Virus record (IMG/VR): IMGVR_UViG_3300033182_000827
Coordinates: 1-42,680 of that record
From: a virus
DNA length: 42,680 nt
Direction: 5' to 3' (one strand)
Shown here: one piece after another, positions 3,465 to 29,157 of the stretch
How the letters are laid out: each line of letters starts with the position of its first letter
How positions within the stretch are numbered: the stretch's first letter is position 1
The notes under the pieces: generated by a model
Database searches by the model: none
Seen by the model: the letters and a program-made list of their open reading frames with translations, nothing else
What the model was told of the DNA's origin: nothing
Made by a program: the position numbers and the translations under genes

Positions 3465-3709
3465 GTACGATTAAAGTAGATCACATAAGACCTTTTGCAA
3501 ATGTTGATACTGTTACATTTTCTGGCGATATATACTGTGAAAATTTAAGTGTTGCTGATTTTATTATGTCTAATGACAGAATTCATCATCAAGGAAATGA
3601 TATTGATGGCACAAAAGGATCTTGGGTTTTTCAAGAAGGCGAAAATAATATATTTTTAATCAATAAGAAAAATGGTAAAAAATATAAATTGGTTTTAGAA
3701 GAGATTTAA
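3461..3709 (+). CDS. Short fibre protein with MSTIKVDHI N-terminus
   Basis: 82 residues if started at the ATG that overlaps the previous stop (ATGA); an in-frame ATG four codons upstream is possible but less likely. The N-terminus MSTIKVDHI belongs to a set of N-termini (S-x-x-K/R-V-D-x-I) found at the start of about nine proteins in this window, probably a shared attachment segment. The middle (TVTFSGDIYCENLSVADF) and the C-terminal 'KNGKKYKLVLEEI' are beta-rich. It ends in TAATG, which starts the next gene, so it is coupled to the glycine-rich trio. Confidence 0.55.
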   Translation: MSTIKVDHIRPFANVDTVTFSGDIYCENLSVADFIMSNDRIHHQGNDIDGTKGSWVFQEGENNIFLINKKNGKKYKLVLEEI

Positions 3710-4371
3710 TGGGCAAAATAACATCCAGAAGTGGCGGAGATGAAGTTTGTGGTGTTTATCCAAAAAACATCACAGTTTTTGATCAACCTGGAAATGATAC
3801 TTGGATAAAACCAGATGGATGTATTTTTATAAGAGTGCAACTTGTTGGCGCAGGCGGAGGATCCTCTGGTTATTGTGAATCTGGTGGTGCTGGTGGATAT
3901 TCAGAAAAATATATCGATGTCACAGGAATTGACAGCGTACAAGTTACTGTTGGATCAGGAGGTTTGACTCGTACATATACTTCTTCCCCTCAAGTTCCAT
4001 CAGATAGTGGGGGCACAACTTCATTTGGTTCTTATCTAACTGCAACAGGTGGTTATGGTGCAAATTCACATGGTTCACACGAAGGTGGTGCGGGGGGTAT
4101 AGGTTTTGGGGGGGATATAAACTTGCCTGGGGGTAGAGGGGGTGGTCACTGTAATAGTATGGGCTATTGGGGTCCTAATACAGGAGCATCATCATTCTTT
4201 GGAGGACCTTCTGGTAGAAGACATAGTGATAGTAACAATAATACTGGGGAACAAAATGCTGCACCTGGTGCAGGAGGTTCTGGTGGAGTGACTGATAAGA
4301 CAGCTACTGGTGATCCTGGGAGACACGGAATTATTTTAATTCATGAATTTCATAGGTATGAGGGAGAATGA
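3709..4371 (+). CDS. Glycine-rich adhesin, paralogue 1 of 3
   Basis: 220 residues. After ~25 variable residues comes a W-I-K-P-D-G-C strand, IRVQLVGAGGGSSGY, then GGAGGYSEKYIDV and long Gly-rich loops (GGTTSFGSYLTATGGYGAN, then GGAGGIGFGGDINLPGG, then GPSGRRHS) ending in PGAGGSGGVTD...GIILIHEF. Glycine-rich domains of this kind (polyglycine-II type sandwiches) form the receptor-binding tip of adhesins such as gp38 of some T-even phages; assignment here is by composition. Two paralogues follow directly. This copy differs most in the centre (YTSSPQVPSDS insertion). Start is TAATG; stop overlaps the next ATG as ATGA. Confidence 0.7.
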   Translation: MGKITSRSGGDEVCGVYPKNITVFDQPGNDTWIKPDGCIFIRVQLVGAGGGSSGYCESGGAGGYSEKYIDVTGIDSVQVTVGSGGLTRTYTSSPQVPSDSGGTTSFGSYLTATGGYGANSHGSHEGGAGGIGFGGDINLPGGRGGGHCNSMGYWGPNTGASSFFGGPSGRRHSDSNNNTGEQNAAPGAGGSGGVTDKTATGDPGRHGIILIHEFHRYEGE

Positions 4372-5012
4372 TAAAAAGTAGAAGCTCAAATACTGCTATA
4401 GGTCGTGCAAAAACTATAAGTTCTTATATTTTGCCAGGATTACATCTATGGGAAAAACCCGAAGGATGTACAAGTATATATGTGCAAATCGTTGGCGGTG
4501 GCGGCGGAGGAGCAGGTTATTGTGAAGGTGGTGGTGCTGGTGGATATTCAGAAAAATATATTGACGTAAAAAACGTTGAAACAGTACAAGTAAATGTAGG
4601 TTCTGGAGGTAGTAATAGATTGTATTATGGTAATGCTGGTGATGGAGGAACAACATCTTTCGGTTCTTATTTAACTGCTACAGGCGGATACGGTGCTAAT
4701 AGAAATTCTCAACATGAAGGTGGCAGAGGGGGTATTGGTCAGGGAGGACACTTAAACATTTATGGTGGAAAAGGTGCGGGACACGGAAATGGTATGGGTG
4801 CCGGAACTCCAAATAGTGGTGGTGCATCGTATTTTGGGGGTGGTTCATCAGCATTAAGGAGTGGATATCCAGACTATCAACAAGTCGGTTATGATGGAAG
4901 TTATAATGTTTCACCAGGCGCCGGTGGTGCTGGAGGTGTTACGGATGGCAGCAATAGAAGAGGTAATAGAGGTGTTGCTGGTGCAGTATTTGTGCATGAA
5001 TATTATGATTAG
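4368..5012 (+). CDS. Glycine-rich adhesin, paralogue 2 of 3
   Basis: 214 residues with the same order of blocks as its upstream neighbour: LWEKPEGCTSIYVQIVGGGGGG, GGAGGYSEKYIDV, GDGGTTSFGSYLTATGGYG, GGRGGIGQGGHL, GGKGAGHGNGMGAG, PGAGGAGGVTDG and a final VFVHEYYD. The loop region GGGSSALRSGYPDYQQVGYDG is unlike the GGPSGRRHS loop of the other two copies, so variation is concentrated in exposed loops while the frame residues are kept. A 69-base segment is identical to the third paralogue. Predicted role is a fibre-tip adhesin, by composition and position only. Confidence 0.7.
   Translation: MIKSRSSNTAIGRAKTISSYILPGLHLWEKPEGCTSIYVQIVGGGGGGAGYCEGGGAGGYSEKYIDVKNVETVQVNVGSGGSNRLYYGNAGDGGTTSFGSYLTATGGYGANRNSQHEGGRGGIGQGGHLNIYGGKGAGHGNGMGAGTPNSGGASYFGGGSSALRSGYPDYQQVGYDGSYNVSPGAGGAGGVTDGSNRRGNRGVAGAVFVHEYYD
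4638..4706 (+). repeat. 69-bp segment identical to 5294-5362
   Basis: The bases encoding GDGGTTSFGSYLTATGGYGANRN are identical in the second and third glycine-rich paralogues, although the flanking loops differ. A separate 31-base block (4267-4297 and 5558-5588) is identical between the first and third. The pattern of different exact blocks shared by different pairs indicates mosaic exchange between the three genes. Confidence 0.85.
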
Positions 5013-5020
5013 GAATAACA

Positions 5021-5647
5021 ATGTCAATCAATATATCAAATAAAAAAATTACTGGTATTACACCTAAAACAGCACAAGTATTCAAAACATCAGGAAGTCA
5101 CACATGGAGACGACCAGAAGGATGTAAATTCATCAGAGTTCAACTTGTAGGCGGCGGCGGAGGAGCGGCAGGATATCTTGAATCTGGTGGTGCTGGTGGA
5201 TATTCAGAAAAATACATAGACGTTAGAAATGTGTCACAAGTTTCTGTGACTGTCGGGAGTGGGGGTAGTACTGTTACTTACTATACTGGGGCCGGTGATG
5301 GAGGAACAACATCTTTCGGTTCTTATTTAACTGCTACAGGCGGATACGGTGCTAATAGAAATGTTCAGCATGAAGGGGGTAGAGGAGGTATTGGATCAGG
5401 AGGTGATGTGAATTTATATGGTGGAAAAGGTGGGGGACACGGAAATAGTTCGGGTTATTGGGGCTCAAATCGTGGAGGCATATCTTATTTTGGTGGTCCA
5501 TCCGGAAGACGCCATAGTAACAATGCTAACAACACCGGAACTGATAAGGCAGCGCCAGGTGCAGGAGGTTCTGGTGGAGTGACTGATACAGCAACTAATG
5601 GTGATCCTGGCATGACAGGAATAGTAATAGTTCACGAATATTATTAG
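5021..5647 (+). CDS. Glycine-rich adhesin, paralogue 3 of 3
   Basis: 208 residues. ATG at 5021 follows GGAA at 5013-5016. Blocks: TWRRPEGCKFIRVQLVGGGGGA, GGAGGYSEKYIDV, GDGGTTSFGSYLTATGGYG, GGRGGIGSGGDVNLYGGKGG, YFGGPSGRRHSN, PGAGGSGGVTD and a final GIVIVHEYY. It combines the loop of paralogue 1 (GGPSGRRHS) with the central segment of paralogue 2, so it looks like a recombinant of the two, or the source of both. Like its partners it has no signal peptide. Inferred to be a fibre-tip adhesin or a fibre with a polyglycine-type tip. Confidence 0.7.
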   Translation: MSINISNKKITGITPKTAQVFKTSGSHTWRRPEGCKFIRVQLVGGGGGAAGYLESGGAGGYSEKYIDVRNVSQVSVTVGSGGSTVTYYTGAGDGGTTSFGSYLTATGGYGANRNVQHEGGRGGIGSGGDVNLYGGKGGGHGNSSGYWGSNRGGISYFGGPSGRRHSNNANNTGTDKAAPGAGGSGGVTDTATNGDPGMTGIVIVHEYY

Positions 5648-5660
5648 GAGATTCTATAAT

Positions 5661-6017
5661 ATGTTATATGCACTAATTTCATTAAATGAAAATGGAAGAA
5701 TATGTGAAATAAGAGAAGAAGGAAAATTATTTGATGTTAATCCTGATGGTTTCAAATGGATTAGTCTTATTGATGATAGTATAGGAACTACTACACATCG
5801 ATTTGATGTTGATAAAAATATGTTTGTTGAATTTCAAAAAGATAGCTCAGTTAAAATGAGATTAAATGTAGCGAGAGCTATAGAATATGGAACAATTGGT
5901 GATCAATTAGATATGATTTGGAAAGAATTGAACGAAACGGGTACACTATCAAAAAATGGTGAATGGTTTAATCATGTAAAACGGGTGAAAGATAATGTCA
6001 CAAGAGATAATGTATAG
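5661..6017 (+). CDS. Small phage protein with GDQLDMIWKEL motif
   Basis: 118 residues. The C-terminal half has A-R-A-I-E-Y-G-T-I-G-D-Q-L-D-M-I-W-K followed by ...W-F-N-H-V-K-R-V-K, a pattern (aligned as YGSIGDQLD-xxW-xxxxx-WxxHIxxVK) widespread in small tail-region proteins of tailed phages, whose function is not settled; some are tail-fibre assembly factors or chaperone-like. The N-terminal half reads like a 'value' domain (MLYALISLNENGRICEIREE). It lies between the glycine-rich trio and the enzyme cassette, and its 3' end overlaps the next gene by 23 bases. A chaperone role for the preceding adhesins is possible but inferred. Confidence 0.6.
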   Translation: MLYALISLNENGRICEIREEGKLFDVNPDGFKWISLIDDSIGTTTHRFDVDKNMFVEFQKDSSVKMRLNVARAIEYGTIGDQLDMIWKELNETGTLSKNGEWFNHVKRVKDNVTRDNV

Positions 6018-7269
6018 AAAAATAAAATTTCCTCATTATGATAATTTGGGTATTTCTCATCCAAATACTTATTATAATTTAATAAAAAACTCATCACAAA
6101 AATTTAAAAACGAAATCAATGATATATATTTTGGCAAATTTTTTAAATATACTTTTAATGGTATAGAAAAAAATTATGGTAATGCTATGGGGTTAGAAGC
6201 AACTCCTGAACAGATTGACAATCTTTTTAGAATTCAGAAAGAATTTGATATTCCAATTTGTTTAACATTGAATAGTTTAGAAACTCCTCATGAATTATTG
6301 TATGATGAGAGAGTTATAAAATTATTTATTGAGTTTATAGGTGAATTTTATGAAAGAGGATTGAGACAATGCATATTAGCATCACCACATCTTCTTGCAA
6401 GTCAATTATTACAACGAAATTTTCCCGAAATGAGATGGGAAAATACTGTAAATCAAAAAGTTATAGATGCTCAATCAGTCATTGATTTATTATTTAATGG
6501 TTACAATACAATAATGATCGATAGGAGATTAAATCGTGATTTGAAAGAACTCAAAAAAATCAGAAAAGCAGTCGATTATTTTAATGAAAAATATAAACCA
6601 GCGAAAAAAGCAAAAATTTGTTTGCTGATTTCTGAATCATGTATATATAATTGTCCATTTAAGAAAGAACATGATTCTATCGGTGAAGTTATAAGTGCTC
6701 AATACTTTGGAACATTGAGCAAGTTGTCATGCGATAATTGGAGGTTTACAGATTTTGGATTGATTCCTAGAAATGGAATTGATCTAGTAGCATCATCAAA
6801 AGAAGTATTTGAAGAATTTAATCAATTAGTTGACATATTTAAATTTTCTGGTAGATTTACAACTTTACCATTTTCCCCAGATGTATCAGATAGTTATAAA
6901 TTAGTTTGGTTTTTCTCGGAAACAGATAATGTTAGCAGATTGACTTCTAATTCAATATTTAAAATGAATAATGATGATACTATATTCTCAAATTGTTTTT
7001 CTGAAATTATAGAAAACGACTTACAGCCAATACATGCTTGGTTACATGGTTATGCTCTAAATGAATATACTGATTATAAAGATAAAATTGATTCTATATA
7101 TTCTGTAAAAAGTATATGGAAAACGAATGAAGGAAAAAGATTAGAACAAATTTTAAAGACATGTAAATCACAGTGCTGGAATTGTCATGAATGTGAAAAA
7201 ACTTTTAAAACAAGATTATTTGATTCGGGATTACAATTAAATGAGAACCTGTATAATGCCATTAGATGA
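5995..7269 (+). CDS. U32-peptidase-like Fe-S TIM-barrel protein
   Basis: 424 residues from ATG 5995; ATG 6010 (MYRKIKFPHYDN) is an alternative. The segment IPICLTLNSLETPHE, followed by YERGLRQCILASPHLL, has the layout of the U32 barrel (beta strand with NTL/NSL, then a strand ending in a catalytic-side loop). C216-x3-C220 in ESCIYNCPFKKEH resembles the Cys pair of U32/UbiU-UbiV/RlhA-type proteins. A second cluster C390-x3-C394-x2-C397-x2-C400 lies near the C-terminus. Six cysteines could hold an Fe-S cluster. Family members act in oxygen-independent hydroxylation of ubiquinone or tRNA/rRNA bases rather than as proteases; no substrate is deduced here. It starts the enzyme cassette and overlaps the following oxygenase. 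Confidence 0.5.
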   Translation: MSQEIMYRKIKFPHYDNLGISHPNTYYNLIKNSSQKFKNEINDIYFGKFFKYTFNGIEKNYGNAMGLEATPEQIDNLFRIQKEFDIPICLTLNSLETPHELLYDERVIKLFIEFIGEFYERGLRQCILASPHLLASQLLQRNFPEMRWENTVNQKVIDAQSVIDLLFNGYNTIMIDRRLNRDLKELKKIRKAVDYFNEKYKPAKKAKICLLISESCIYNCPFKKEHDSIGEVISAQYFGTLSKLSCDNWRFTDFGLIPRNGIDLVASSKEVFEEFNQLVDIFKFSGRFTTLPFSPDVSDSYKLVWFFSETDNVSRLTSNSIFKMNNDDTIFSNCFSEIIENDLQPIHAWLHGYALNEYTDYKDKIDSIYSVKSIWKTNEGKRLEQILKTCKSQCWNCHECEKTFKTRLFDSGLQLNENLYNAIR

Positions 7270-7843
7270 TATTCATATCATTGATGATTTTATTTCTGAA
7301 GAGTATCAAAATTTAATTGAAGATGTTGTATTCGGTGAAGATATTGATTATAAATTTATTGAAGATGTTGGACATATAAACAGTAAAAAAAATAAAAATT
7401 TTGGTTTTTGTCATTTATTTAGAGATGAAACTGTAAATTTTCCACGAAAACCTGTTGATTATTTTTTTGCTCCGTTAATTCATGATGGTATGAAAAAAAT
7501 TGAAAGAAAAGTTAGCTTCTTAAAAAGAGGTAGAATTTTTTTAACAACACCATCTCCTAATCTCAATCAAGATGTATATCACATTGACATACCAACTTAT
7601 CATATTGCATTTATATACTATGTAAACACTTGTGATGGTGGAACAACATTTACTAATAATTTTTTACCCCCTGAGGAAGAATTAAAATATCTAACAAAAT
7701 ATTACGAAGTAAATGAAATGAATGTTTATAAACAAGTAGAATCAAAAAAAGGTAGAGCAGTTATATTTAATGGTCTTAGATATCATTCATCATATCGACC
7801 CACAAATGGAATTAGAGCAGTTGTTAATTTCAATTTAATTTGA
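7256..7843 (+). CDS. 2-oxoglutarate/Fe(II)-dependent oxygenase 1
   Basis: 195 residues from ATG 7256 (MPLDDIHIIDDF); ATG 7241 would add five residues and a longer overlap with the upstream gene. Double-stranded beta-helix oxygenase signature: H109-x-D111 in YHIDIPTYHIAFIYYVN, G-G-T-T-F after it, H177 in GLRYHSSYRP and R187 in NGIRAVVNFN. These supply the two His, one Asp and the 2-oxoglutarate-binding Arg. Strand order and lengths match small phage-encoded prolyl-4-hydroxylase-like oxygenases. The substrate cannot be read from sequence. It lies between the U32-like gene and the halogenase, with its stop 14 bases before the halogenase start. Confidence 0.8.
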   Translation: MPLDDIHIIDDFISEEYQNLIEDVVFGEDIDYKFIEDVGHINSKKNKNFGFCHLFRDETVNFPRKPVDYFFAPLIHDGMKKIERKVSFLKRGRIFLTTPSPNLNQDVYHIDIPTYHIAFIYYVNTCDGGTTFTNNFLPPEEELKYLTKYYEVNEMNVYKQVESKKGRAVIFNGLRYHSSYRPTNGIRAVVNFNLI

Positions 7844-7857
7844 CTAAGGAATATATT

Positions 7858-9375
7858 ATGATAAAAAAAATTTTAATAGCAGGAGGTGGTAGTGCTGGTT
7901 GGATGACAGCATCTTTAATGGCAAAAGAATTTCCTGATTTAGATATAACTCTTGTTGAATCAAATAAAAAACTGACAATTGGTGTTGGTGAATCGACACT
8001 GGGACATATAAATTCTTATTTCAAGGTTTTGGGTTTAAAAGATAAAGATTGGATGTCTTCTTGCGATGCAACATATAAAAACTCAATACAATTTACAGAC
8101 TTTTATAAATTAGGACACAGATTTCAATATCCTTTTGGTGATTTTCATAATAATAATGGTGTAGATTATCACGATTTCTGTAAATTAATAAATTATTATG
8201 ATGATTTGACCACAAAAGATATGGTTGAGTTTTTTAATCTGAATTCTTTATTGGTTAGATATAACAAACAAATCAATAAAAACATATTAGGATTCGATCC
8301 AGAATATCATGTTGCATATCACATGGATGCTGAAAAATTGGGTATTTTTTTGAAAAATTTTTTCTGTAAAAATGTAAAACATGTTATAGGTCATATTCAA
8401 TTTGTGGGTAAATCAGAAACTGGCATTGATCATATTATAGTTGATGGTCAAAAATTTTCTGCTGATTTATATTTTGATTGCACAGGATTTAGTTCAGTAT
8501 TAATGAATGCATATTCAAATGAAAATTTTTATAAACCATTTAAATATCTGATAAATGACAGGGCATTTGTTTCAAGAAGAAATTACAGCGATGAAAATGA
8601 TCAGAGACAAAATATAAAAAATGTAACTGATTGTAAAGGTATGAAATATGGATGGAAATGGACAATTCCTTTATGGAATAAAATCAGTAGAGGGTATGTG
8701 TTTTCATCTAGATTTGATAATGAAGAAAAAATAGCAGAAGAATTTTCAAATGACACGGGAGATGATGATTTTAGAAAAATTGAATTTGTCAGTGGTTATA
8801 GAAAATTTTCTTGGTACAAAAATATTGTCAGTATAGGATTAAGTTCTGGATTTATTGAGCCTTTAGAATCGACAGGATTATTTACAACACATGAAAATTT
8901 ATTGAGAGTTTTAAAGATATTAAAATTAAATGATTTAGAAGTAAATTCTATTGATAAAACAATTTATAATAAATCAGTTGAAAGACATTTGACAGGTCTG
9001 TCAGAATTTGTTTCTATGCATTATGCATTATCTAGAAGAACTGATAGTAAATACTGGAAATACGTAAGAGAAAAATATGATTATAATGAAATGAATAATT
9101 ATATTGATTTTTTTATATCATCAGCGCAAAATTTAGGATCAATTTTTTATAAAAAATTTGATGTAAACTTTTTAGAGGGCATGTTATTTATTTTACCTGG
9201 TATGGGTTTTTTGCCAACTACAAAAACTGATATTTTGTCTGATAATACAAACTATTACATGTTACAGGAACAGCGTCAAAAAGTTTTTAAAGATTTGAAA
9301 AACAGACGACAGTTAGTTACTACATTTGAAGATAATTTTGATTATATCAAAAGACATATTTATGATGAAGACTAG
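7858..9375 (+). CDS. Flavin-dependent halogenase (tryptophan halogenase type)
   Basis: 505 residues, the family's normal length. Start at ATG 7858 is supported by AAGGA at 7846-7850. FAD-binding GGGSAGWMTA at residues 9-18 (GxGxxG type), GVGESTLGHIN at 42-52, and K74 in CDATYK, aligned with the catalytic Lys (K79 in PrnA/RebH). The halogenase hallmark W-x-W-x-I-P is present as W266-K-W268-T-I270-P271. E337-S338 in FIEPLESTGLF matches the Glu/Ser (RebH E357/S358) at the active site. All diagnostic residues are intact, so it is predicted active: it would use reduced FAD, oxygen and halide to make a hypohalous species for a substrate. No flavin reductase is visible here; it would rely on the host. 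Known relatives include VirX1 of a marine cyanophage, which iodinates many substrates. Confidence 0.9.
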   Translation: MIKKILIAGGGSAGWMTASLMAKEFPDLDITLVESNKKLTIGVGESTLGHINSYFKVLGLKDKDWMSSCDATYKNSIQFTDFYKLGHRFQYPFGDFHNNNGVDYHDFCKLINYYDDLTTKDMVEFFNLNSLLVRYNKQINKNILGFDPEYHVAYHMDAEKLGIFLKNFFCKNVKHVIGHIQFVGKSETGIDHIIVDGQKFSADLYFDCTGFSSVLMNAYSNENFYKPFKYLINDRAFVSRRNYSDENDQRQNIKNVTDCKGMKYGWKWTIPLWNKISRGYVFSSRFDNEEKIAEEFSNDTGDDDFRKIEFVSGYRKFSWYKNIVSIGLSSGFIEPLESTGLFTTHENLLRVLKILKLNDLEVNSIDKTIYNKSVERHLTGLSEFVSMHYALSRRTDSKYWKYVREKYDYNEMNNYIDFFISSAQNLGSIFYKKFDVNFLEGMLFILPGMGFLPTTKTDILSDNTNYYMLQEQRQKVFKDLKNRRQLVTTFEDNFDYIKRHIYDED

Positions 9376-9973
9376 AAAAATAAGAAATGTGATATCTAAT
9401 TCTTATCGATTGTATTTAGAAAATCAATTATTGAATTCAAATGTTTGGTCTTATTTAAGATCAGTTGTCAGAACAGATTTAACTACTAATGATGACAGTT
9501 TTGGATTTACTGTCTATAGAACACCTTTTATAGAACCCCCAGAAGTAAAACATGAAATATTTTATAATATGCTAACTGGTTTATATTTTAACTTATTGGA
9601 AGGTTTTAAATTAAAAAATATCGATATTTTAAGAATTCGTTTAGGACTAATTTTAAATTCAGGAAAATTTATTGTAAATACACCTCATGTTGATTTTGAC
9701 TATGACCATCCTGTGGCAAATAATCATGTCAATATTTTATATTATTTTAATTCCACTAATGCGCCTACTTATTTGTATGAAGAAACTAGTGAAAATATTA
9801 AAGATACTGTAACATATGGGGTAGAAAATAAGTTTAAAGTAAAAAAAATAATGAATTGCGAGAAGAATACTGCATATATTTTTGATGGTAGTTATTTTCA
9901 TTCCAGTTCTAAACCAACAGATGAAAAATACAGATTAGTTTTAAATTTAAATGGAAAAATATATGAAAATTGA
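9362..9973 (+). CDS. 2-oxoglutarate/Fe(II)-dependent oxygenase 2
   Basis: 203 residues from ATG 9362 (a second ATG follows directly). Signature: H109-V-D111 in NTPHVDFDYDHP, then HVNILYYFNS, H180 in GSYFHSSSKP and R191 in KYRLVLNLN. The spacing (His109, Asp111, distal His ~180, Arg ~190) is nearly the same as in oxygenase 1 and the strand texts YYVN/YYFN, F-H-S-S and RLVLNLN/RAVVNFN align, so the two are probably paralogues from an old duplication. The gene overlaps the halogenase by 14 bases and the third oxygenase by 11, which argues for one cotranslated unit. Substrate unknown. Confidence 0.8.
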   Translation: MMKTRKIRNVISNSYRLYLENQLLNSNVWSYLRSVVRTDLTTNDDSFGFTVYRTPFIEPPEVKHEIFYNMLTGLYFNLLEGFKLKNIDILRIRLGLILNSGKFIVNTPHVDFDYDHPVANNHVNILYYFNSTNAPTYLYEETSENIKDTVTYGVENKFKVKKIMNCEKNTAYIFDGSYFHSSSKPTDEKYRLVLNLNGKIYEN

Positions 9974-10595
9974 AAATTTATTCCCCGTACCAATTATTAT
10001 AAGTTCTGCCGATGACACAAAAAATGAGATTGATAAGGAAATAAATTCTACTATTAAAGAAATTTATGACAATGAGAAATTTGAATATCTCTCCTATGTG
10101 AATAAAAAATTTAAAAGAACTGAACATGGTTTGAATTATAAAATACAATCGGATATAATTGAAGATTTTAAAATGGATAATTTAAAAACTAAAATTCAAA
10201 CTACTCTAAATGAATATCATAAAAAAATTAGATGGAATACATTTTTGGCAGAAGATAATAATGTCTATAGTCTTGAAAACTCATGGTTAAACATTATTGA
10301 ACCGAATACATTTTCTCATGAATATCATTCGCATCCACAATATGATATATCTGGGGTATATTATCATCAAATCACCAGAGAAACTGGGGGAATTTGTTTT
10401 AAAAATCCAAATATTATGGTTGAAAATATGTCATTCCCTTCAGGTCCGATTTCCCCTCAGAGTATAGAATACTTACCAAAAAATGGAGATTTATATTTGT
10501 TTCCTAGTTGGTTGACCCACTGTACGTTTAATAATAATGATACAAATGATAGAATTAGTATTGCATTTAATATAAAAATGATTCAGGATAGATAA
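9963..10595 (+). CDS. 2OG-Fe(II) oxygenase 3, PF13759/TIGR02466 type
   Basis: 210 residues from ATG 9963 (MKIENLFPVPI). It is a different oxygenase subfamily from the two upstream: N-terminal FPVPI, then S-W-L-N near residue 110, a His-rich stretch H119-E-Y-H122-S-H124-P followed by D-I-S-G-V-Y-Y-H, then G-D-L-Y-L-F-P-S-W-L-T-H186 and R197-I-S-I-A-F-N. This is the profile I know for the TIGR02466 family of putative 2-oxoglutarate oxygenases, common in marine phages, whose substrates are unknown. Which of H119, H122 and H124 bind iron cannot be decided here. Last gene of the enzyme cassette; a promoter-like element overlaps its stop. Confidence 0.85.
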   Translation: MKIENLFPVPIIISSADDTKNEIDKEINSTIKEIYDNEKFEYLSYVNKKFKRTEHGLNYKIQSDIIEDFKMDNLKTKIQTTLNEYHKKIRWNTFLAEDNNVYSLENSWLNIIEPNTFSHEYHSHPQYDISGVYYHQITRETGGICFKNPNIMVENMSFPSGPISPQSIEYLPKNGDLYLFPSWLTHCTFNNNDTNDRISIAFNIKMIQDR

Positions 10596-10628: not shown

Positions 10629-11096
10629 ATGAATGCACAAAAAGTTACTAATAAAATTTTATTGGTTGATAATTTTTCAGATAGATTAGAATACGTTAAA
10701 AATAAAACTATCGATAGGTTATCACACAACAATGGCGATGAACAAAATGACATTTTACAAGATTTTAGTTTAGAATCAAATAAAATATTTGAAATCAAAA
10801 GTAATTTTTATTTTTTCAAATATTTACAGCATTGTGAATTATTGAATATAATTCCAATAAATTATCAAAGAAATGCAATAAAAGAAAAAATTTTTGATAC
10901 AACTTTAATGACGGGAATTTTATTTACTGATTCATCAGATGTTGAATTCATTAATATTGATGCTCTTAAAATTGTTTGTAAGCCTAACAGATTTTTATTG
11001 TTTTCTTCTTTGCTTGGATATAATTTTGAAACTTCAATTCAAGATAAAATTTATTTAAAATTTGTTATAGAAAAAAAGAATACATATGGCGTCTGA
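10629..11096 (+). CDS. Hypothetical protein downstream of oxygenase cassette
   Basis: 155 residues, no signal peptide, no recognised motif. Residues 1-60 are charged and mixed (NAQKVTNKILLVDNFSDR). The C-terminal half has strands FEIKSNFYFFKYLQH, DALKIVCKPNRFLLFSS and KIYLKFVIEKK. The last two loosely resemble the final strands of a double-stranded beta-helix oxygenase, but the distal His and the Arg are missing, so it may be a degenerate or non-catalytic jelly-roll; this is speculation. It follows the third oxygenase by 33 bases behind a promoter-like box and overlaps the next fibre gene by 11 bases. Confidence 0.5.
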   Translation: MNAQKVTNKILLVDNFSDRLEYVKNKTIDRLSHNNGDEQNDILQDFSLESNKIFEIKSNFYFFKYLQHCELLNIIPINYQRNAIKEKIFDTTLMTGILFTDSSDVEFINIDALKIVCKPNRFLLFSSLLGYNFETSIQDKIYLKFVIEKKNTYGV

Positions 11097-11664
11097 ACTA
11101 ACTGTTGATAAAATATCACCCAATATTAGTGATACTGTAGAAATTGAAAAATTGAGTGGTTCAATACCTACAGGATATAGAATTACAGGAACAGATACAG
11201 GCAGTATTTATGCTCCTGGAATGATAGTTGCTGTACACGTAATTGAAAATTCGACCAGAACAACCATTGCAGATAATACGGAGTATCAGTTTGGTGTATT
11301 TACTAAAAAATTTGCCGATACTTATATTCAATATCAAGTTCTTATGCATGGAGATGATCAGGTTGATTGTGATGCAAGTGGATTATATTTAGCATTTGAG
11401 TCTTTAAATGTTCAAAAATTTAAGGAAAGAACATTAGTAAGACAAGATTCAATCGGCAGTGGAAACAATGAGGAATGCGCCATATGGGGATTGGGACATA
11501 CAACAGGGTTGACTTATGCCGAACAAGTTACGGTTTATTGGGGAACTGATACTACAAGTTCTCGTCCCTTTGTAATTTGGAATCCCAACGAATCTGATGA
11601 ATCTAGATTTAATGGTCAAAGAAGAAGTTGTATAGTTATAAACGAAATTGTGGATTTTCCCTAA
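11086..11664 (+). CDS. Fibre protein with MASELTVDKI N-terminus
   Basis: 192 residues. N-terminus MASELTVDKISP matches the S-x-L-x-V-D-x-I attachment-like segment of neighbouring fibre proteins; residues ~20-45 (SIPTGYRITGTDTGSIYAPGMIV) resemble the 'G-x-T-x-x-P' segment that follows this N-terminus in marine phage fibre proteins. The rest is a single beta-rich domain ending RRSCIVINEIVDFP, the usual 'I-x-EI' final strand. It is joined to the next gene by TAATG. Structural role is inferred from the shared N-terminus and position. Confidence 0.65.
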   Translation: MASELTVDKISPNISDTVEIEKLSGSIPTGYRITGTDTGSIYAPGMIVAVHVIENSTRTTIADNTEYQFGVFTKKFADTYIQYQVLMHGDDQVDCDASGLYLAFESLNVQKFKERTLVRQDSIGSGNNEECAIWGLGHTTGLTYAEQVTVYWGTDTTSSRPFVIWNPNESDESRFNGQRRSCIVINEIVDFP

Positions 11665-12290
11665 TGTCTAGCATTTTAAAAGTTGATTCTCTAAAAAATA
11701 GCAGTGGATCAACTTTTTATTATAGAAATAATCAATTTAAAAATATCACAATTGACGAATCGTGCGAAATTTCTAATTCTATCTTAAGAAAAAATGATAT
11801 TATAGTATCACACAAGTTCACAACATCACCATATTTAAATTTCAAAATTAATTATAATGCAAACAGTTTTGTGCCAGGTACACTTATTAATATGGGAGTG
11901 CCTAGTAATTCAAATAATTGGTATAGAGTAAGATTTGAAACAATTGTCGATGATCAAGATGATGTTGCTGGTGGTTTTGGTTTTTCGATTTATCGAAAGG
12001 TTGGTGATAATGATCCCGAAAGGGTTCAAAGCAGTGGAAATGCTGCATATTATATAAACAATATAACCGATTGGTATGTGAATGCTTTTATTCATGGATA
12101 TATTCCTGCTGTAAACAATAAGGATGAACATATATTTTATATAACATGTAGTGGTTTAGGTGAAACAGAATTTAGAATGAATTGCAGTATTGGTGATGAT
12201 CATCGCAGAAACAATTGGCAAAATAACATTATGGAGATTACTGAATATAATGGTGATTTAGTTGATAGTGGGTTATTAACGAGATACTAA
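11664..12290 (+). CDS. Fibre protein, trio B copy 1
   Basis: 208 residues starting at the ATG overlapping the previous stop (TAATG). N-terminus MSSILKVDSLKN. Residues ~45-65 read IVSHKFTTS..., then M-G-V-P-S-N-S-N-N-W-Y-R, GGFGFSIYRKVG, and the C-terminus NNIMEITEYNGDLVDSGLLTRY. The same blocks occur in order in the next two genes (MG[VI]PK.E.NW[YF]R; G[FGI]S.YRKVG; NNxxEITEYxGDFV), so this is a tandem paralogue family. Function of the domain is unknown; probably a trimeric head domain of a fibre. Confidence 0.65.
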   Translation: MSSILKVDSLKNSSGSTFYYRNNQFKNITIDESCEISNSILRKNDIIVSHKFTTSPYLNFKINYNANSFVPGTLINMGVPSNSNNWYRVRFETIVDDQDDVAGGFGFSIYRKVGDNDPERVQSSGNAAYYINNITDWYVNAFIHGYIPAVNNKDEHIFYITCSGLGETEFRMNCSIGDDHRRNNWQNNIMEITEYNGDLVDSGLLTRY

Positions 12291-12916
12291 TGTCTAGCAT
12301 TTTAAAAATAGATAATATTAAAAATTTAAATAACGAAATTATTTTTGATAATGGAACTTTAAAAAATGTTGTAATCGATGAAAGTTGTAGTTTTTCAGAA
12401 GATATAGAAAATTATTATGATGTTGTTGTAAATCATAAATTCACTTCGTCAGATGATACAGAAATAACCATTAATAGTTCAGCAGGTCATTATTATATTG
12501 GTAATACTGAAATTAATATGGGAATACCGAAAAAAGAAAATAATTGGTACAGATTATATTTTTATAGTGCTATTCAGGACGCTTCTAGCAGTAATGGCGG
12601 TTTAGGATTTTCTTTTTATCGTAAAGTTGGAACTGGATCATTTATTAGAGTTTTAGGGCAGGGTATACATGCAAATTATGATAATGCAATGTCCGACTGG
12701 GGAAATAACCATGATATGTTGGCCTATATTCCAGCAGCAAATGCGATAGATGAACATTCTTTTAGGGTTTATGTGCATATGCACGGCAATTATTTTAGGG
12801 TGAATAAAATAACAAATGAAAATGAAATGTTTAAGGGGGGTTTTAATAACAATATTTTTGAGATAACAGAATATGATGGTGATTTTGTTGAAAATGGGCG
12901 TTTCGAAAGGTATTAA
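12290..12916 (+). CDS. Fibre protein, trio B copy 2
   Basis: 208 residues, started at TAATG. N-terminus MSSILKIDNIKN. Same block order as its neighbours: VVVNHKFTSS, NMGIPKKENNWYR, GFSFYRKVGTGS, and NNIFEITEYDGDFVENGRF. Its middle (YGQG/LGQGIHANYD, LAYIPAANAIDEH) is closest to copy 3, where GQGRHAQYENN is found. Sequence identity among the three is concentrated in these frame strands; loops vary. Coupled both sides by TAATG. No function beyond fibre is indicated. Confidence 0.65.
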   Translation: MSSILKIDNIKNLNNEIIFDNGTLKNVVIDESCSFSEDIENYYDVVVNHKFTSSDDTEITINSSAGHYYIGNTEINMGIPKKENNWYRLYFYSAIQDASSSNGGLGFSFYRKVGTGSFIRVLGQGIHANYDNAMSDWGNNHDMLAYIPAANAIDEHSFRVYVHMHGNYFRVNKITNENEMFKGGFNNNIFEITEYDGDFVENGRFERY

Positions 12917-13626
12917 TGTCAAGCATTATTAGGGTTGATAGTATCATAGACAAAGACAATGATAATGAATTTTTTGATGTTAAGAATAAAAAAATAAAAA
13001 ATTGTTCTTTTAAAACCAAGAGTATAAATTTCAATAAAAAATTTAAAAATCCAATAGTTGTTAATCAAAGATTTACGTCTTCGGGTACAGTCAATTTAAG
13101 CTTAACTAGCTCAAATGGTATTTATTATGTCCCTGATACTGAAATTAGTATGGGTGTACCAAAATCAGAAAAAAATTGGTTTAGAGTTCATTTTCAGTCT
13201 ATTTCAGATGATATGGGTGATGGTGGTAACTCGGGTATAGGATATTATTTATATCGTTATGTTGTGAATTATGATACCACTTGGATGTTACTTTATGGTC
13301 AAGGCCGTCATGCGCAATATGAGAATAATTTAGGTGATTTTTACTATAATACGACCGCAACATTTTATACGCAAGCAGTTGATGACATTAATGAACATAA
13401 GTATAGAATATATGCTTATTCATATGATGCTACGAATAGAAGAATTAATTCTAGTATAGGTGGTGATCTGAGACAATACGGGTGGGTTAACAATTGCATG
13501 GAAATTACAGAATATAATGGAGATTTTGTCGATTCTGGATTATTTGGAAAAAATCAATCCAGTAAAGGACATCTATTTGATATCAATACATATACGGGAT
13601 TTCGTGATACTTTAAAGGGTACATAA
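12916..13626 (+). CDS. Fibre protein, trio B copy 3 (extended)
   Basis: 236 residues. N-terminus MSSIIRVDSIID. Blocks: VVNQRFTSSG, SMGVPKSEKNWFR, YYLYRYVVN, YGQGRHAQYENN, NNCMEITEYNGDFVDSG. After the shared end it carries an extra ~30 residues (GLFGKNQSSKGHLFDINTYTGFRDTLKGT), absent from the two upstream copies, which suggests a change of the distal end after duplication. TAATG junctions on both sides. Role inferred as fibre. Confidence 0.65.
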   Translation: MSSIIRVDSIIDKDNDNEFFDVKNKKIKNCSFKTKSINFNKKFKNPIVVNQRFTSSGTVNLSLTSSNGIYYVPDTEISMGVPKSEKNWFRVHFQSISDDMGDGGNSGIGYYLYRYVVNYDTTWMLLYGQGRHAQYENNLGDFYYNTTATFYTQAVDDINEHKYRIYAYSYDATNRRINSSIGGDLRQYGWVNNCMEITEYNGDFVDSGLFGKNQSSKGHLFDINTYTGFRDTLKGT

Positions 13627-26435: not shown

Positions 26436-27410
26436 ATGAAATCAAAAGCATTTTTTATAAATGGTGGCGCGGGTAGAGTACTATGTTCTTTACCCGCACT
26501 TGAATATTATGCTGAAAATTCCGAAGATGAAGATTTTATCATTATTGCAGAATCTGCGAGTGAATTTTTCCTATCAAGCAAATTGTTATATGACCGCGTA
26601 TATTCACCCAGTCACAAAAATATATTCAAAGAATTAATTAAAAATAGACAAGTTGTTTATCCAGAACCTTATCATTTATGGGAGTATTATAATCAAAAAT
26701 GTTCTATAATTCAAGGTTTTGATAAAATTATTAATGGACTAGATGAAATTAGAGATTCTAAAAAACCAAAATTGAATTTATATAGAGATGAAATTGCAGA
26801 AGCAATAAAATTATTAGATGAAGTTAGATTAAAAACAGGTAAAAATAAAGTAGTTGTTTTTCAACCATTTGGTAGAGGTATACAACAAGTGGGCAGTGAG
26901 TTTGTTGATTATTCTTACCGTTCTTTTGAAATGCAAAATGCTGTAAATATCATACAAAATCTAAGAGAAGATTATACAGTATTACTAATGTCACAAAATT
27001 CACTACCAATAAAAATAGATGATGAAAATCCTATTGCAGTTCCTCAGACTGAAAATTTAAGATTGTGGGCAGCAGTTATAAAAATGTCTGATTATTTTTT
27101 AGGGTGTGATTCACTTGGTCAACATCTCGCTAGATCAGTTGATACAAAATCGACAGTGGTTATTGGTTCGACTTATCCCACTAATGTCTCTTATATTGAT
27201 GATGATATGGTAAAAATATTTGATGTCGGAAAAAATTCTAGAAGTTACATGCCTATACGAATAATAGAAGGTGCTGAATATAATAGAAAAAATGAAACTT
27301 GCATGTTGATCGATAAAAAGACAGAAGAAAAAATTATTTCAAATGTTCGAGAAAATTTAGGGGAGCCAATAAAAGTAAAAAAATTAATTCCAAATAAAAA
27401 AGTTGCTTAA
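26436..27410 (+). CDS. GT9-like glycosyltransferase (heptosyltransferase fold)
   Basis: 324 residues with a GGAG-type ribosome site (GGAG 26428-26431) before ATG 26436. N-terminus F-I-N-G-G-A-G-R-V-L-C-S-L-P-A-L-E-Y-Y matches the N-terminal 'G.GD.l...pal..l' loop of GT-B heptosyltransferase-type enzymes. The C-terminal half has KVVVFQPFGRG, LREDYTVLLMSQ, ENLRLWAAVIKMSDYFLGCDSLGQHLA and STVVIGSTYPTN, the sugar-nucleotide-binding part typical of GT9 (LPS heptosyltransferases). It probably transfers a sugar to an LPS-like glycan or a virion protein. The sugar and acceptor are unknown. The carbamoyltransferase starts one base after its stop. Confidence 0.65.
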   Translation: MKSKAFFINGGAGRVLCSLPALEYYAENSEDEDFIIIAESASEFFLSSKLLYDRVYSPSHKNIFKELIKNRQVVYPEPYHLWEYYNQKCSIIQGFDKIINGLDEIRDSKKPKLNLYRDEIAEAIKLLDEVRLKTGKNKVVVFQPFGRGIQQVGSEFVDYSYRSFEMQNAVNIIQNLREDYTVLLMSQNSLPIKIDDENPIAVPQTENLRLWAAVIKMSDYFLGCDSLGQHLARSVDTKSTVVIGSTYPTNVSYIDDDMVKIFDVGKNSRSYMPIRIIEGAEYNRKNETCMLIDKKTEEKIISNVRENLGEPIKVKKLIPNKKVA

Positions 27411-27411
27411 T

Positions 27412-29157
27412 ATGAATACTGGATATATTGCTGGAATATCAAGAGGTCATAATGCATCAGTGTGTTTATTGAAAAATGGAGAGTTAATTTTTTCAGTCGA
27501 AGAAGAGAGATTGACAAGATATAAGTATGATGGTGGACCTTATGCATCCATAGTCAAGTTAAAGGAATATACTGATCATCTTGACTATTGTGTTATTGCA
27601 CATACACAACCAGATGATAGTCGTACAGATTATGTTGGCGGAACAGTTTATGAAAATTTATTGAGAAAATTTGGACTAATAAAAAATAAAGACAAAATAA
27701 TTGAAACTTATCAAGAACATCATAAAATGCACTCATACTGTGGATTTTATAATTCTGGTTTTGATGAAGCGTTGACATTTGTTATTGATGGTGCTGGAAC
27801 TTTCATACCTTCAAATATAGACGGAGATGAACTAACACTTTGGGAGGTAGAAAGTATTTTTTATTGTAAATATCCAGATTTTCAAAAACCACTATATAAA
27901 CATTTGGGTGGTAGAGGTCCCTTTAGGTCTTTAATTGTTGATGATAATGATTGCGAAATTTATATTGATGATGGTGCTGGTATAGTCAAAGCATACGAAG
28001 CAGTAACACAATATTGTGGTTGGTATCCTATAGAAGCGGGTAAGACTATGGGATTGTTTCCATACGGAAAACCAAATAAAAATATACCTGATTTTTTTAC
28101 GGACGAAAATGGAACCGCTAATTGGGTTTCAACTAATAGGAATTTAGTCATCCCAACTTATCCAAACGGCGCTGTAATCAATGATCAAAAATATATTGAA
28201 TTAAGTTTTGGATGTCAAGATATTGTTGATCATTATAATTTACAAAATAGAAAAGATTTAGCATATAAAATTCAAGTCGAATCTCAAAAACAAGTTCTCA
28301 ATCTAATAGAAAAATATGTTAAAAAAACCGAAATAAAAAATGTAATTTTAACGGGTGGTTATGGTTTAAATTGCGTGGCAAATTATTATTATCTAGATCG
28401 CTTAAAAGAATTGGATGTTAATTTTTATGTTGAACCAATATCAAATGACGCAGGAACATCTATAGGAGCAGCAAAATATTATCATCATAATTTGAGTCAA
28501 AGTTATAAAGTTAATAAAAAATTAGAATCATTATATCTTGGCCCAAAATATGATATTACAAAAGAACAAATAATAGATAAAATTAAAAGTAAAAATTTAG
28601 AAATTAGTTCTGTTGAATATTTCGATGTTGTTAAATTATTGAGAGAAAAAAATGTTATTGCTATGTTTCAAGGTAGATCAGAAAATGGTCCAAGAGCATT
28701 AGGAAATCGTTCTATAATATTTGATCCAACATTTAAAGATGGTAAAGATCATGTTAATAGAATTAAAAAGAGAGAATTTTTTAGACCTTTTGCGGCAACA
28801 ATTTTACATGAATATGTTAATGAATGGTTTGACATGAAAACTCTGGAAGAGTCACCTTTTATGATGTATGCTGTAAATTGTTTAGAAGATAAAAAAGAAA
28901 TTATACCTTCAGTGATTCATATAGATGGGACTTGTAGAGTTCAAACATTAAAATATTCTCAAAATAAATATTTTTATGAGTTAATTAAATCATTTTACGA
29001 TGAAACAGGCGTACCTTTACTTTTTAATACGTCTTTCAATTTGGGGGGTCAGCCTCTAGTTGAAACAATTGACGATGCTATTGATACTTTTTATGATTCA
29101 AAAATAAATTTCTTATATTTACCAGAATTAAAGATAGTTATAAAAAATGGCAAATAA
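27412..29157 (+). CDS. O-carbamoyltransferase, NodU/TobZ/CmcH family
   Basis: 581 residues, the family's full length; ATG 27412 is chosen over TTG 27403. Kae1-like N-terminal domain: RGHNASVCLL (residues 12-21), SVEEERLTRYKYDGG, HH-KM-H (H103, H104, H107; metal-binding His pattern), GFYNSGF, TFVIDGAG, GKTMGLFPYG, and TGGYGLNCVANYYY. YrdC-like-associated C-terminal part: S-E-N-G-P-R-A-L-G-N-R-S (424-434), RIKKREFFRPFA and TSFNLGGQPLVET (540-552). Reaction of the family: transfer of carbamoyl from carbamoyl phosphate (via carbamoyl-AMP, ATP-dependent) to a hydroxyl of a sugar or antibiotic. Adjacent GT9 suggests O-carbamoylation of a glycan on the host surface or on virion proteins. All key motifs look intact. 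Confidence 0.9.
   Translation: MNTGYIAGISRGHNASVCLLKNGELIFSVEEERLTRYKYDGGPYASIVKLKEYTDHLDYCVIAHTQPDDSRTDYVGGTVYENLLRKFGLIKNKDKIIETYQEHHKMHSYCGFYNSGFDEALTFVIDGAGTFIPSNIDGDELTLWEVESIFYCKYPDFQKPLYKHLGGRGPFRSLIVDDNDCEIYIDDGAGIVKAYEAVTQYCGWYPIEAGKTMGLFPYGKPNKNIPDFFTDENGTANWVSTNRNLVIPTYPNGAVINDQKYIELSFGCQDIVDHYNLQNRKDLAYKIQVESQKQVLNLIEKYVKKTEIKNVILTGGYGLNCVANYYYLDRLKELDVNFYVEPISNDAGTSIGAAKYYHHNLSQSYKVNKKLESLYLGPKYDITKEQIIDKIKSKNLEISSVEYFDVVKLLREKNVIAMFQGRSENGPRALGNRSIIFDPTFKDGKDHVNRIKKREFFRPFAATILHEYVNEWFDMKTLEESPFMMYAVNCLEDKKEIIPSVIHIDGTCRVQTLKYSQNKYFYELIKSFYDETGVPLLFNTSFNLGGQPLVETIDDAIDTFYDSKINFLYLPELKIVIKNGK

Follow-up and report, generated by a model that had tools for sequence, protein, structure and literature searches.

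We analysed a stretch of 42,680 nucleotides (hereafter the window; positions 1 to 42,680 of IMG/VR virus record IMGVR_UViG_3300033182_000827) from a marine T4-like phage. This fragment encodes homologues of gp22 and gp23, and its major capsid protein is nearest (61%–62%) to those of Pelagibacter and Methylophilales phages. A cassette of five enzyme genes (5995–10595) encodes a flavin-dependent halogenase (FDH), three 2-oxoglutarate (2OG) oxygenases (OX1–OX3) and a U32-like protein. Directly upstream lie genes for three Gly-rich proteins (3709–5647; PF21722, phrog_863) followed by a phrog_1787 protein. The first-pass annotation, made from the sequence alone, had described five enzymes in a row; all five open reading frames were found on the plus strand, and each belonged to the family proposed for it. 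The genes are as follows.

3709..4371, plus strand: Gly-rich adhesin 1 (PF21722 / phrog_863), the proposed substrate, with the E-Y-N-H-H residue set described below
4368..5012, plus strand: Gly-rich adhesin 2 (PF21722 / phrog_863), with the E-Y-N-H-H set
5021..5647, plus strand: Gly-rich adhesin 3, with E54, Y87, N112, H117 and H140; best PDB match, the Pam3 fibre 7ypx
5661..6017, plus strand: small phrog_1787 protein, flanked by adhesins and enzymes at almost every locus
5995..7269, plus strand: U32-like TIM-barrel protein with seven invariant Cys (CX3C, C, CX3CX2CX2C)
7241..7843, plus strand: 2OG oxygenase OX1 (phrog_274; HxD...H...R), alternative start ATG 7256
7840..9375, plus strand: FDH, VirX1-like, likely start ATG 7858; K74 and E337 intact
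9326..9973, plus strand: 2OG oxygenase OX2 (phrog_274; HxD...H...R), likely start ATG 9362
9951..10595, plus strand: 2OG oxygenase OX3 (PF13759 / phrog_81), family motif HxH...H...R
10629..11096, plus strand: orphan protein of 155 amino acids after the cassette, of uncertain membership in it

The genes are tightly packed. The phrog_1787 and U32-like genes overlap by 23 bases, and the U32-like gene and OX1 by 14 (from ATG 7256) or 29. The overlaps described earlier hold for FDH/OX2 (14 bases, from ATG 9362) and OX2/OX3 (11 bases from ATG 9963, or 23), but not for OX1/FDH, where a start at TTG 7840 gives a 4-base overlap and a start at ATG 7858, which agrees better with the starts of relatives, leaves a 14-base gap. 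The GC content of the cassette is 26.3%, compared with 32.9% in the remainder of the window.

Enzymes of the Cassette

Judged by score and motifs, the FDH is a full-length member of the PF04820 flavin-dependent tryptophan halogenase family (6.5e-90, 302.6 bits against a cutoff of 21; phrog_2928, 1.9e-131). The predicted intactness of its catalytic residues was borne out: the GGGSAG and WKWTIP motifs are present, as are Glu337 and the catalytic Lys, K74, which lines up with K79 of VirX1/PrnA. The nearest solved structure is VirX1 of cyanophage Syn10 (PDB 6qgm), which matches across the full length (phmmer 9e-97) and shares the catalytic Lys and Glu, although identity is only about 37%. The counterpart of VirX1 in syn9 (gp42) likewise follows Gly-rich fibre genes and precedes a gene run including 2OG oxygenases, whereas the window has the U32-like gene and OX1 ahead of the FDH. 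The characterisation of VirX1 used small aromatics in free form. FDHs depend on reduced flavin adenine dinucleotide and a halide, and their targets are electron-rich aromatic rings (PMC8407142).

OX1 and OX2 both retain H111, D113, H179 and R189, that is, the HxD...H metal triad and the 2OG-binding Arg, as had been proposed. Both match phrog_274 (2.2e-31 and 1.1e-23, respectively); against Pfam, OX1 reached PF13640 at 0.0012, under the Pfam cutoff, and OX2 matched no 2OG family. The sequence profile of OX1 matched no solved homologue. The label ‘DNA endonuclease V’ is widespread on phrog_274 genes and on cyanophage 2OG-Fe(II) oxygenases; this and the denV label on phrog_274 genes are misannotations, as the proteins have the 2OG triad. 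A role of the oxygenases in DNA modification was also dropped, given the fibre context and the lack of a DNA-modification neighbour. OX3 matched PF13759 (2OG-FeII_Oxy_5; 7.9e-19, 68.4 bits, cutoff 27), and its motif H126, H128, H190 and R201 (HxH...H...R) is the state of 98%–100% of about 240 relatives. HxH...H is thus the norm of its family, which rules out reading OX3 as a dead or degenerate enzyme, although the first-pass annotation had named only oxygenases 1 and 2 as intact.

The AlphaFold model of the U32-like protein (predicted local distance difference test score, pLDDT, 88) had the U32 protein Mk0906 (5d88) as its top PDB match (E-value 6.6e-7, Z score 15.6; next 11.1). The earlier U32 call therefore stood at the level of the fold, but not beyond it: the sequence gave no match to PF01136 up to an E-value of 10, although positive controls worked, and its seven clustered, invariant Cys are spaced CX3C...C...CX3CX2CX2C instead of the four-Cys CX6CX15CX3/4C pattern with which U32 proteins bind 4Fe-4S (PMC6747719). 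‘U32-like’ is therefore the proper name. The U32 oxidases UbiU/UbiV, RlhA and TrhP likewise combine a TIM barrel with clustered invariant Cys, and the family hydroxylates independently of O2, using an Fe-S cluster (PMC11574389). The window protein is probably an Fe-S hydroxylase.

Gly-Rich Proteins Upstream of the Enzymes

Sequence profiles of the adhesins matched no solved homologue, and structure prediction was therefore used. The model of adhesin 3 (5021–5647; pLDDT 90.7) matched the fibre of cyanophage Pam3 (7ypx) with an E-value of 9.6e-9 and a template modelling score of 0.69. On this model, the Gly-rich proteins of the window are fibre-tip proteins and predicted adhesins, not collagens. 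Prolyl hydroxylation of collagen by the oxygenases was accordingly dropped as an explanation, the adjacent adhesins being Gly-rich tips of the Pam3 fibre type. They also resemble the T2-type gp38 polyglycine II adhesins of S16 and PP01, in which Gly-rich motifs are separated by variable stretches (PMC12892980), although gp38 of S16 or PP01 was absent among the Foldseek matches listed for the adhesin model. They differ from both the Pam3 fibre and gp38 in their three tandem copies, their E-Y-N-H-H set and the adjoining oxidative enzymes. The phrog_1787 protein is probably a fibre-assembly partner; its few invariant residues (W33, R72, Y76, Q82 and K110) are also kept in loci lacking an FDH.

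Recurrence of the Gene Order

A similar gene order was seen in hundreds of ocean phages. Each scan was limited to the best 80 matches, so that counts cover the nearer relatives of each query; the same contig may recur across scans, and counts are given per scan or over distinct sequences. With the window FDH alone as the query, IMG/VR gave no match, and an alignment was used instead. The order adhesin, phrog_1787, U32-like, 2OG oxygenase and FDH occurred at 12 loci, namely the window and 11 other distinct viral loci. Among 48 distinct loci found from the U32-like protein, 38 had an adhesin upstream, 36 had phrog_1787 directly upstream and 29 had an FDH within two genes. Scans anchored on the fibre side and not on the FDH gave the stronger result: adhesins lay upstream of phrog_1787 in 49/51 loci, an FDH adjoined in 49/49 of those, and adhesin-anchored loci with room contained an FDH in 56/56 cases. 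These 49 loci include one with a changed order (L237) and two with strand flips (L261, L278). From the FDH side, Gly-rich adhesins lay within 4 kb upstream in 53/77 loci, and 44/61 IMG/VR FDH loci with room had adhesins. Nearly all adhesin-linked FDH loci (39/40) carried 2OG genes, 3.2 on average.

A shorter version (adhesins, phrog_1787, FDH and a 2OG array) recurs in cyanomyoviruses, including relatives of VirX1. In loci of named cyanophages labelled by profile, the FDHs nearest to that of the window directly follow adhesins and phrog_1787 and precede a string of 2OG genes (Sf-FP1, syn9, S-CREM1, S-WAM1, P-TIM40, P-RSM6, S-SZBM1 and S-RIM44). In Sf-CH11, the two proteins flanking the FDH and 2OG genes are Gly-rich but more distant in type. 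The closest relative of the window FDH (L018) sits among fibre and baseplate genes, and even the divergent FDH cluster of S-SSM7 is preceded by a gene for a tail fibre and by Gly-rich genes in tandem. The latter (L014, 551–2141) encode Gly/Cys-rich proteins with CSCNRC motifs, another tip family in the same enzyme neighbourhood.

Absence of co-occurrence in related phages had been set beforehand as grounds for abandoning the cassette; instead, the core recurred in 11 other loci, and FDH and 2OG genes stood together, downstream of Gly-rich adhesins, in many cyanophages. The idea of a tailoring pathway embedded among fibre genes gains support from this recurrent order with adhesins. The cassette was thereby upheld, with a refinement: adhesins, phrog_1787, U32-like, OX1 and FDH form a constant core, whereas OX2 and OX3 downstream are a variable add-on. 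Adhesin linkage holds across differences in gene order, strand, number of FDH genes (F, FF, FFF) and presence or absence of the U32-like gene. On the FDH tree, the adhesin-linked state must have changed at least 10 times; the linkage has thus been re-made or re-lost many times.

Several further features were observed at these loci. Two loci (L071, L080) have three successive FDH genes, and their adhesins have Arg where Asn112 stands. Five loci (L140, L141, L149, L150 and L161) combine adhesin, phrog_1787 and U32-like genes without an FDH; the L140 adhesin has an N-terminal CBM_5_12 carbohydrate-binding domain. In the window, the orphan protein after the cassette (10629–11096) had no family match and no relative among the fetched loci; by eye it looks β-rich, possibly a degenerate double-stranded β-helix. 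Three tandem phrog_8195 proteins (11628–13626) lie beyond the cassette, so that a tandem triplet stands on either side of it, the Gly-rich one being in front. A Nol-like carbamoyltransferase (phrog_1601) is encoded at 27403–29157, within the fibre-rich region.

Adhesin Residues That Follow the Halogenase

Residues are numbered after adhesin 3. In a non-redundant set of 107 FDH-linked adhesins, whose pairwise identity averages 0.49, the near-invariant charged, aromatic or amide positions were Glu54, Glu63, Tyr87, Phe99, Asn112, His117 and His140, with Glu54 and Tyr87 each kept in 106 and both His in all 107. The set Glu54, Tyr87, His117 and His140 (E-Y-H-H) was complete in 734/744 FDH-linked adhesins vs. 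0/11 adhesins with room but without an FDH, a contrast to be read as a pointer and not as statistical proof, because the adhesins without an FDH represent only one or two lineages. Loci lacking the FDH retain phrog_1787 and U32-like genes, and their adhesins mostly or fully keep Glu63 and Phe99. The set is retained at FDH loci with a single adhesin (L131, L173); in the adhesin of S-B64, where the FDH is far off, most of it is lost.

Proposed Maturation of the Adhesins

These patterns make it fairly probable that the cassette serves as an operon for adhesin maturation, whose FDH and hydroxylases would modify side chains of the fibre tip, with Tyr87 as the leading candidate for halogenation. Late in infection, the three Gly-rich adhesins and the phrog_1787 protein would be made together with the enzymes from the same message. 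The FDH might then halogenate an aromatic residue, most plausibly the invariant Tyr87 of each adhesin. 2OG oxygenases are known to hydroxylate protein side chains, and those of the cassette, together with the U32-like protein, could hydroxylate other conserved positions, for which Asn112, His117 and His140 are candidates. OX1 and the U32-like protein may hydroxylate further residues, and OX2 and OX3 may add modifications particular to this phage. The U32-like protein accompanies adhesins even without an FDH (L140–L162), suggesting an action on the adhesin that does not depend on the FDH. In vancomycin biosynthesis, β-hydroxylation of tyrosine precedes its halogenation (PMC12615548); by this analogy only, an oxygenase and the FDH could act in sequence. 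Modified tips might bind the receptor better or resist seawater, or the modification might be needed for folding.

In favour of such a reaction, FDHs acting on peptide and protein Trp are known (PMC10286304, PMC12518702). The FDHs of ribosomally synthesised and post-translationally modified peptides and other peptide FDHs (a leader-guided brominase, ChlH) halogenate residues of a ribosomal peptide or protein encoded adjacently (PMC10286304, PMC10858898, PMC12518702). Their target is peptide Trp, whereas the target proposed here is an invariant Tyr of a folded Gly-rich adhesin with no known leader.

Several observations weigh against adhesin maturation. There is no flavin reductase within the cassette, so that the host would presumably supply it, and VirX1 accepts many free heteroaromatics in vitro (PMC8407142). 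Some FDHs lie far from fibres, in metabolic regions (S-MbCM6, Syn1 and P-SSM2) or amid replication genes (S-B64, L073); these represent a different context, and context has changed repeatedly over the FDH tree. Four copies of a third-in-row adhesin (L096/L137/L350/L366) have lost Glu54 and Tyr87 despite the presence of an FDH. An independent-pairs test of the E-Y-H-H set against the FDH fell short of significance, the FDH-less adhesins covering so few lineages, and the set could mark an adhesin subfamily or a metal site.

Alternative Explanations

The enzymes might instead make a small halogenated, hydroxylated metabolite (an antibiotic, signal or ligand) in or around the infected cell, with the fibre site as a convenient late operon. 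Antibiotic protection has been proposed for cyanophage prnA (PMC2984593; PMC9964418). For S-SSM6a/S-SSM7, whose cluster also joins FDH and 2OG genes but includes sugar and carbamoyl genes, PMC7824862 proposes a halogenated metabolite or capsule decoration, in a passage that makes no link to adhesins. The acceptance of small aromatics by VirX1 and the FDHs located off fibre regions fit such a pathway. We nevertheless regard it as unlikely, since it leaves unexplained the linkage on the adhesin side (56/56 and 49/49, across changes of order and strand), the window cassette has no scaffold-making genes and the adhesin E-Y-H-H set tracks the FDH. The enzymes could also modify a molecule of the host surface or envelope, or structural proteins of the phage other than the Gly-rich adhesins, which we consider quite improbable. 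The carbamoyltransferase at 27403–29157 and, in S-SSM7, the carbamoyltransferases and sugar genes adjoining the FDH would suit a host-surface target, and phrog_1787 is linked as strictly as the adhesins. However, no residue pattern tracking the FDH was found outside the adhesins, and the few invariant residues of phrog_1787 persist where the FDH is missing.

The adhesin and enzymes might, finally, be inherited together or exchanged as a host-range module, with no action of the enzymes on the adhesin and with E-Y-H-H as a structural or metal site of a subfamily. The fibre regions of T4-like phages are exchanged as blocks, and the FDH-less adhesins fall in only one or two clades. Yet the linkage survives changes of order, strand, FDH number and U32-like presence, and the FDH tree requires its 10 or more state changes. 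Hitchhiking should moreover yield adhesins with an intact motif but no FDH, and none was found among loci with room. Block exchange thus explains some of the synteny, but not this lack, and as a full account it has a slim chance of being right. The first-pass annotation had left the target open between virion proteins and a host molecule; because of the strict adhesin linkage and of residues that adhesins keep only where an FDH is linked, fibre-tip adhesins are now favoured, and a host molecule less so.

Significance

The enzyme families of the cassette are each known, as is the occurrence of FDH and 2OG genes in cyanophages. Within the portions of open-access full text covered (subscription journals being outside this scope), we found no link of viral halogenases to fibre adhesins and no proposal of adhesin halogenation. 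Cyanophage ‘tryptophan halogenases’ and the numerous 2OG oxygenases of these phages have long carried metabolic or antibiotic annotations with no known target, and VirX1 is a studied biocatalyst without a native substrate; the tie to adhesins gives a concrete target and names the residues. There is perhaps an even chance that marine T4-like phages widely halogenate and hydroxylate conserved residues (Tyr87, His117, His140 and Asn112) of their receptor-binding tips through a dedicated operon, with the U32-like protein in some lineages, and that this is the native role of VirX1-type enzymes. If adhesin maturation is correct, the phage would chemically finish its own receptor-binding tips, and viral halogenases such as VirX1 would gain a natural role. 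Host recognition by abundant ocean phages would then rely on halogenated or hydroxylated tips that are invisible to sequence-based models of host range.

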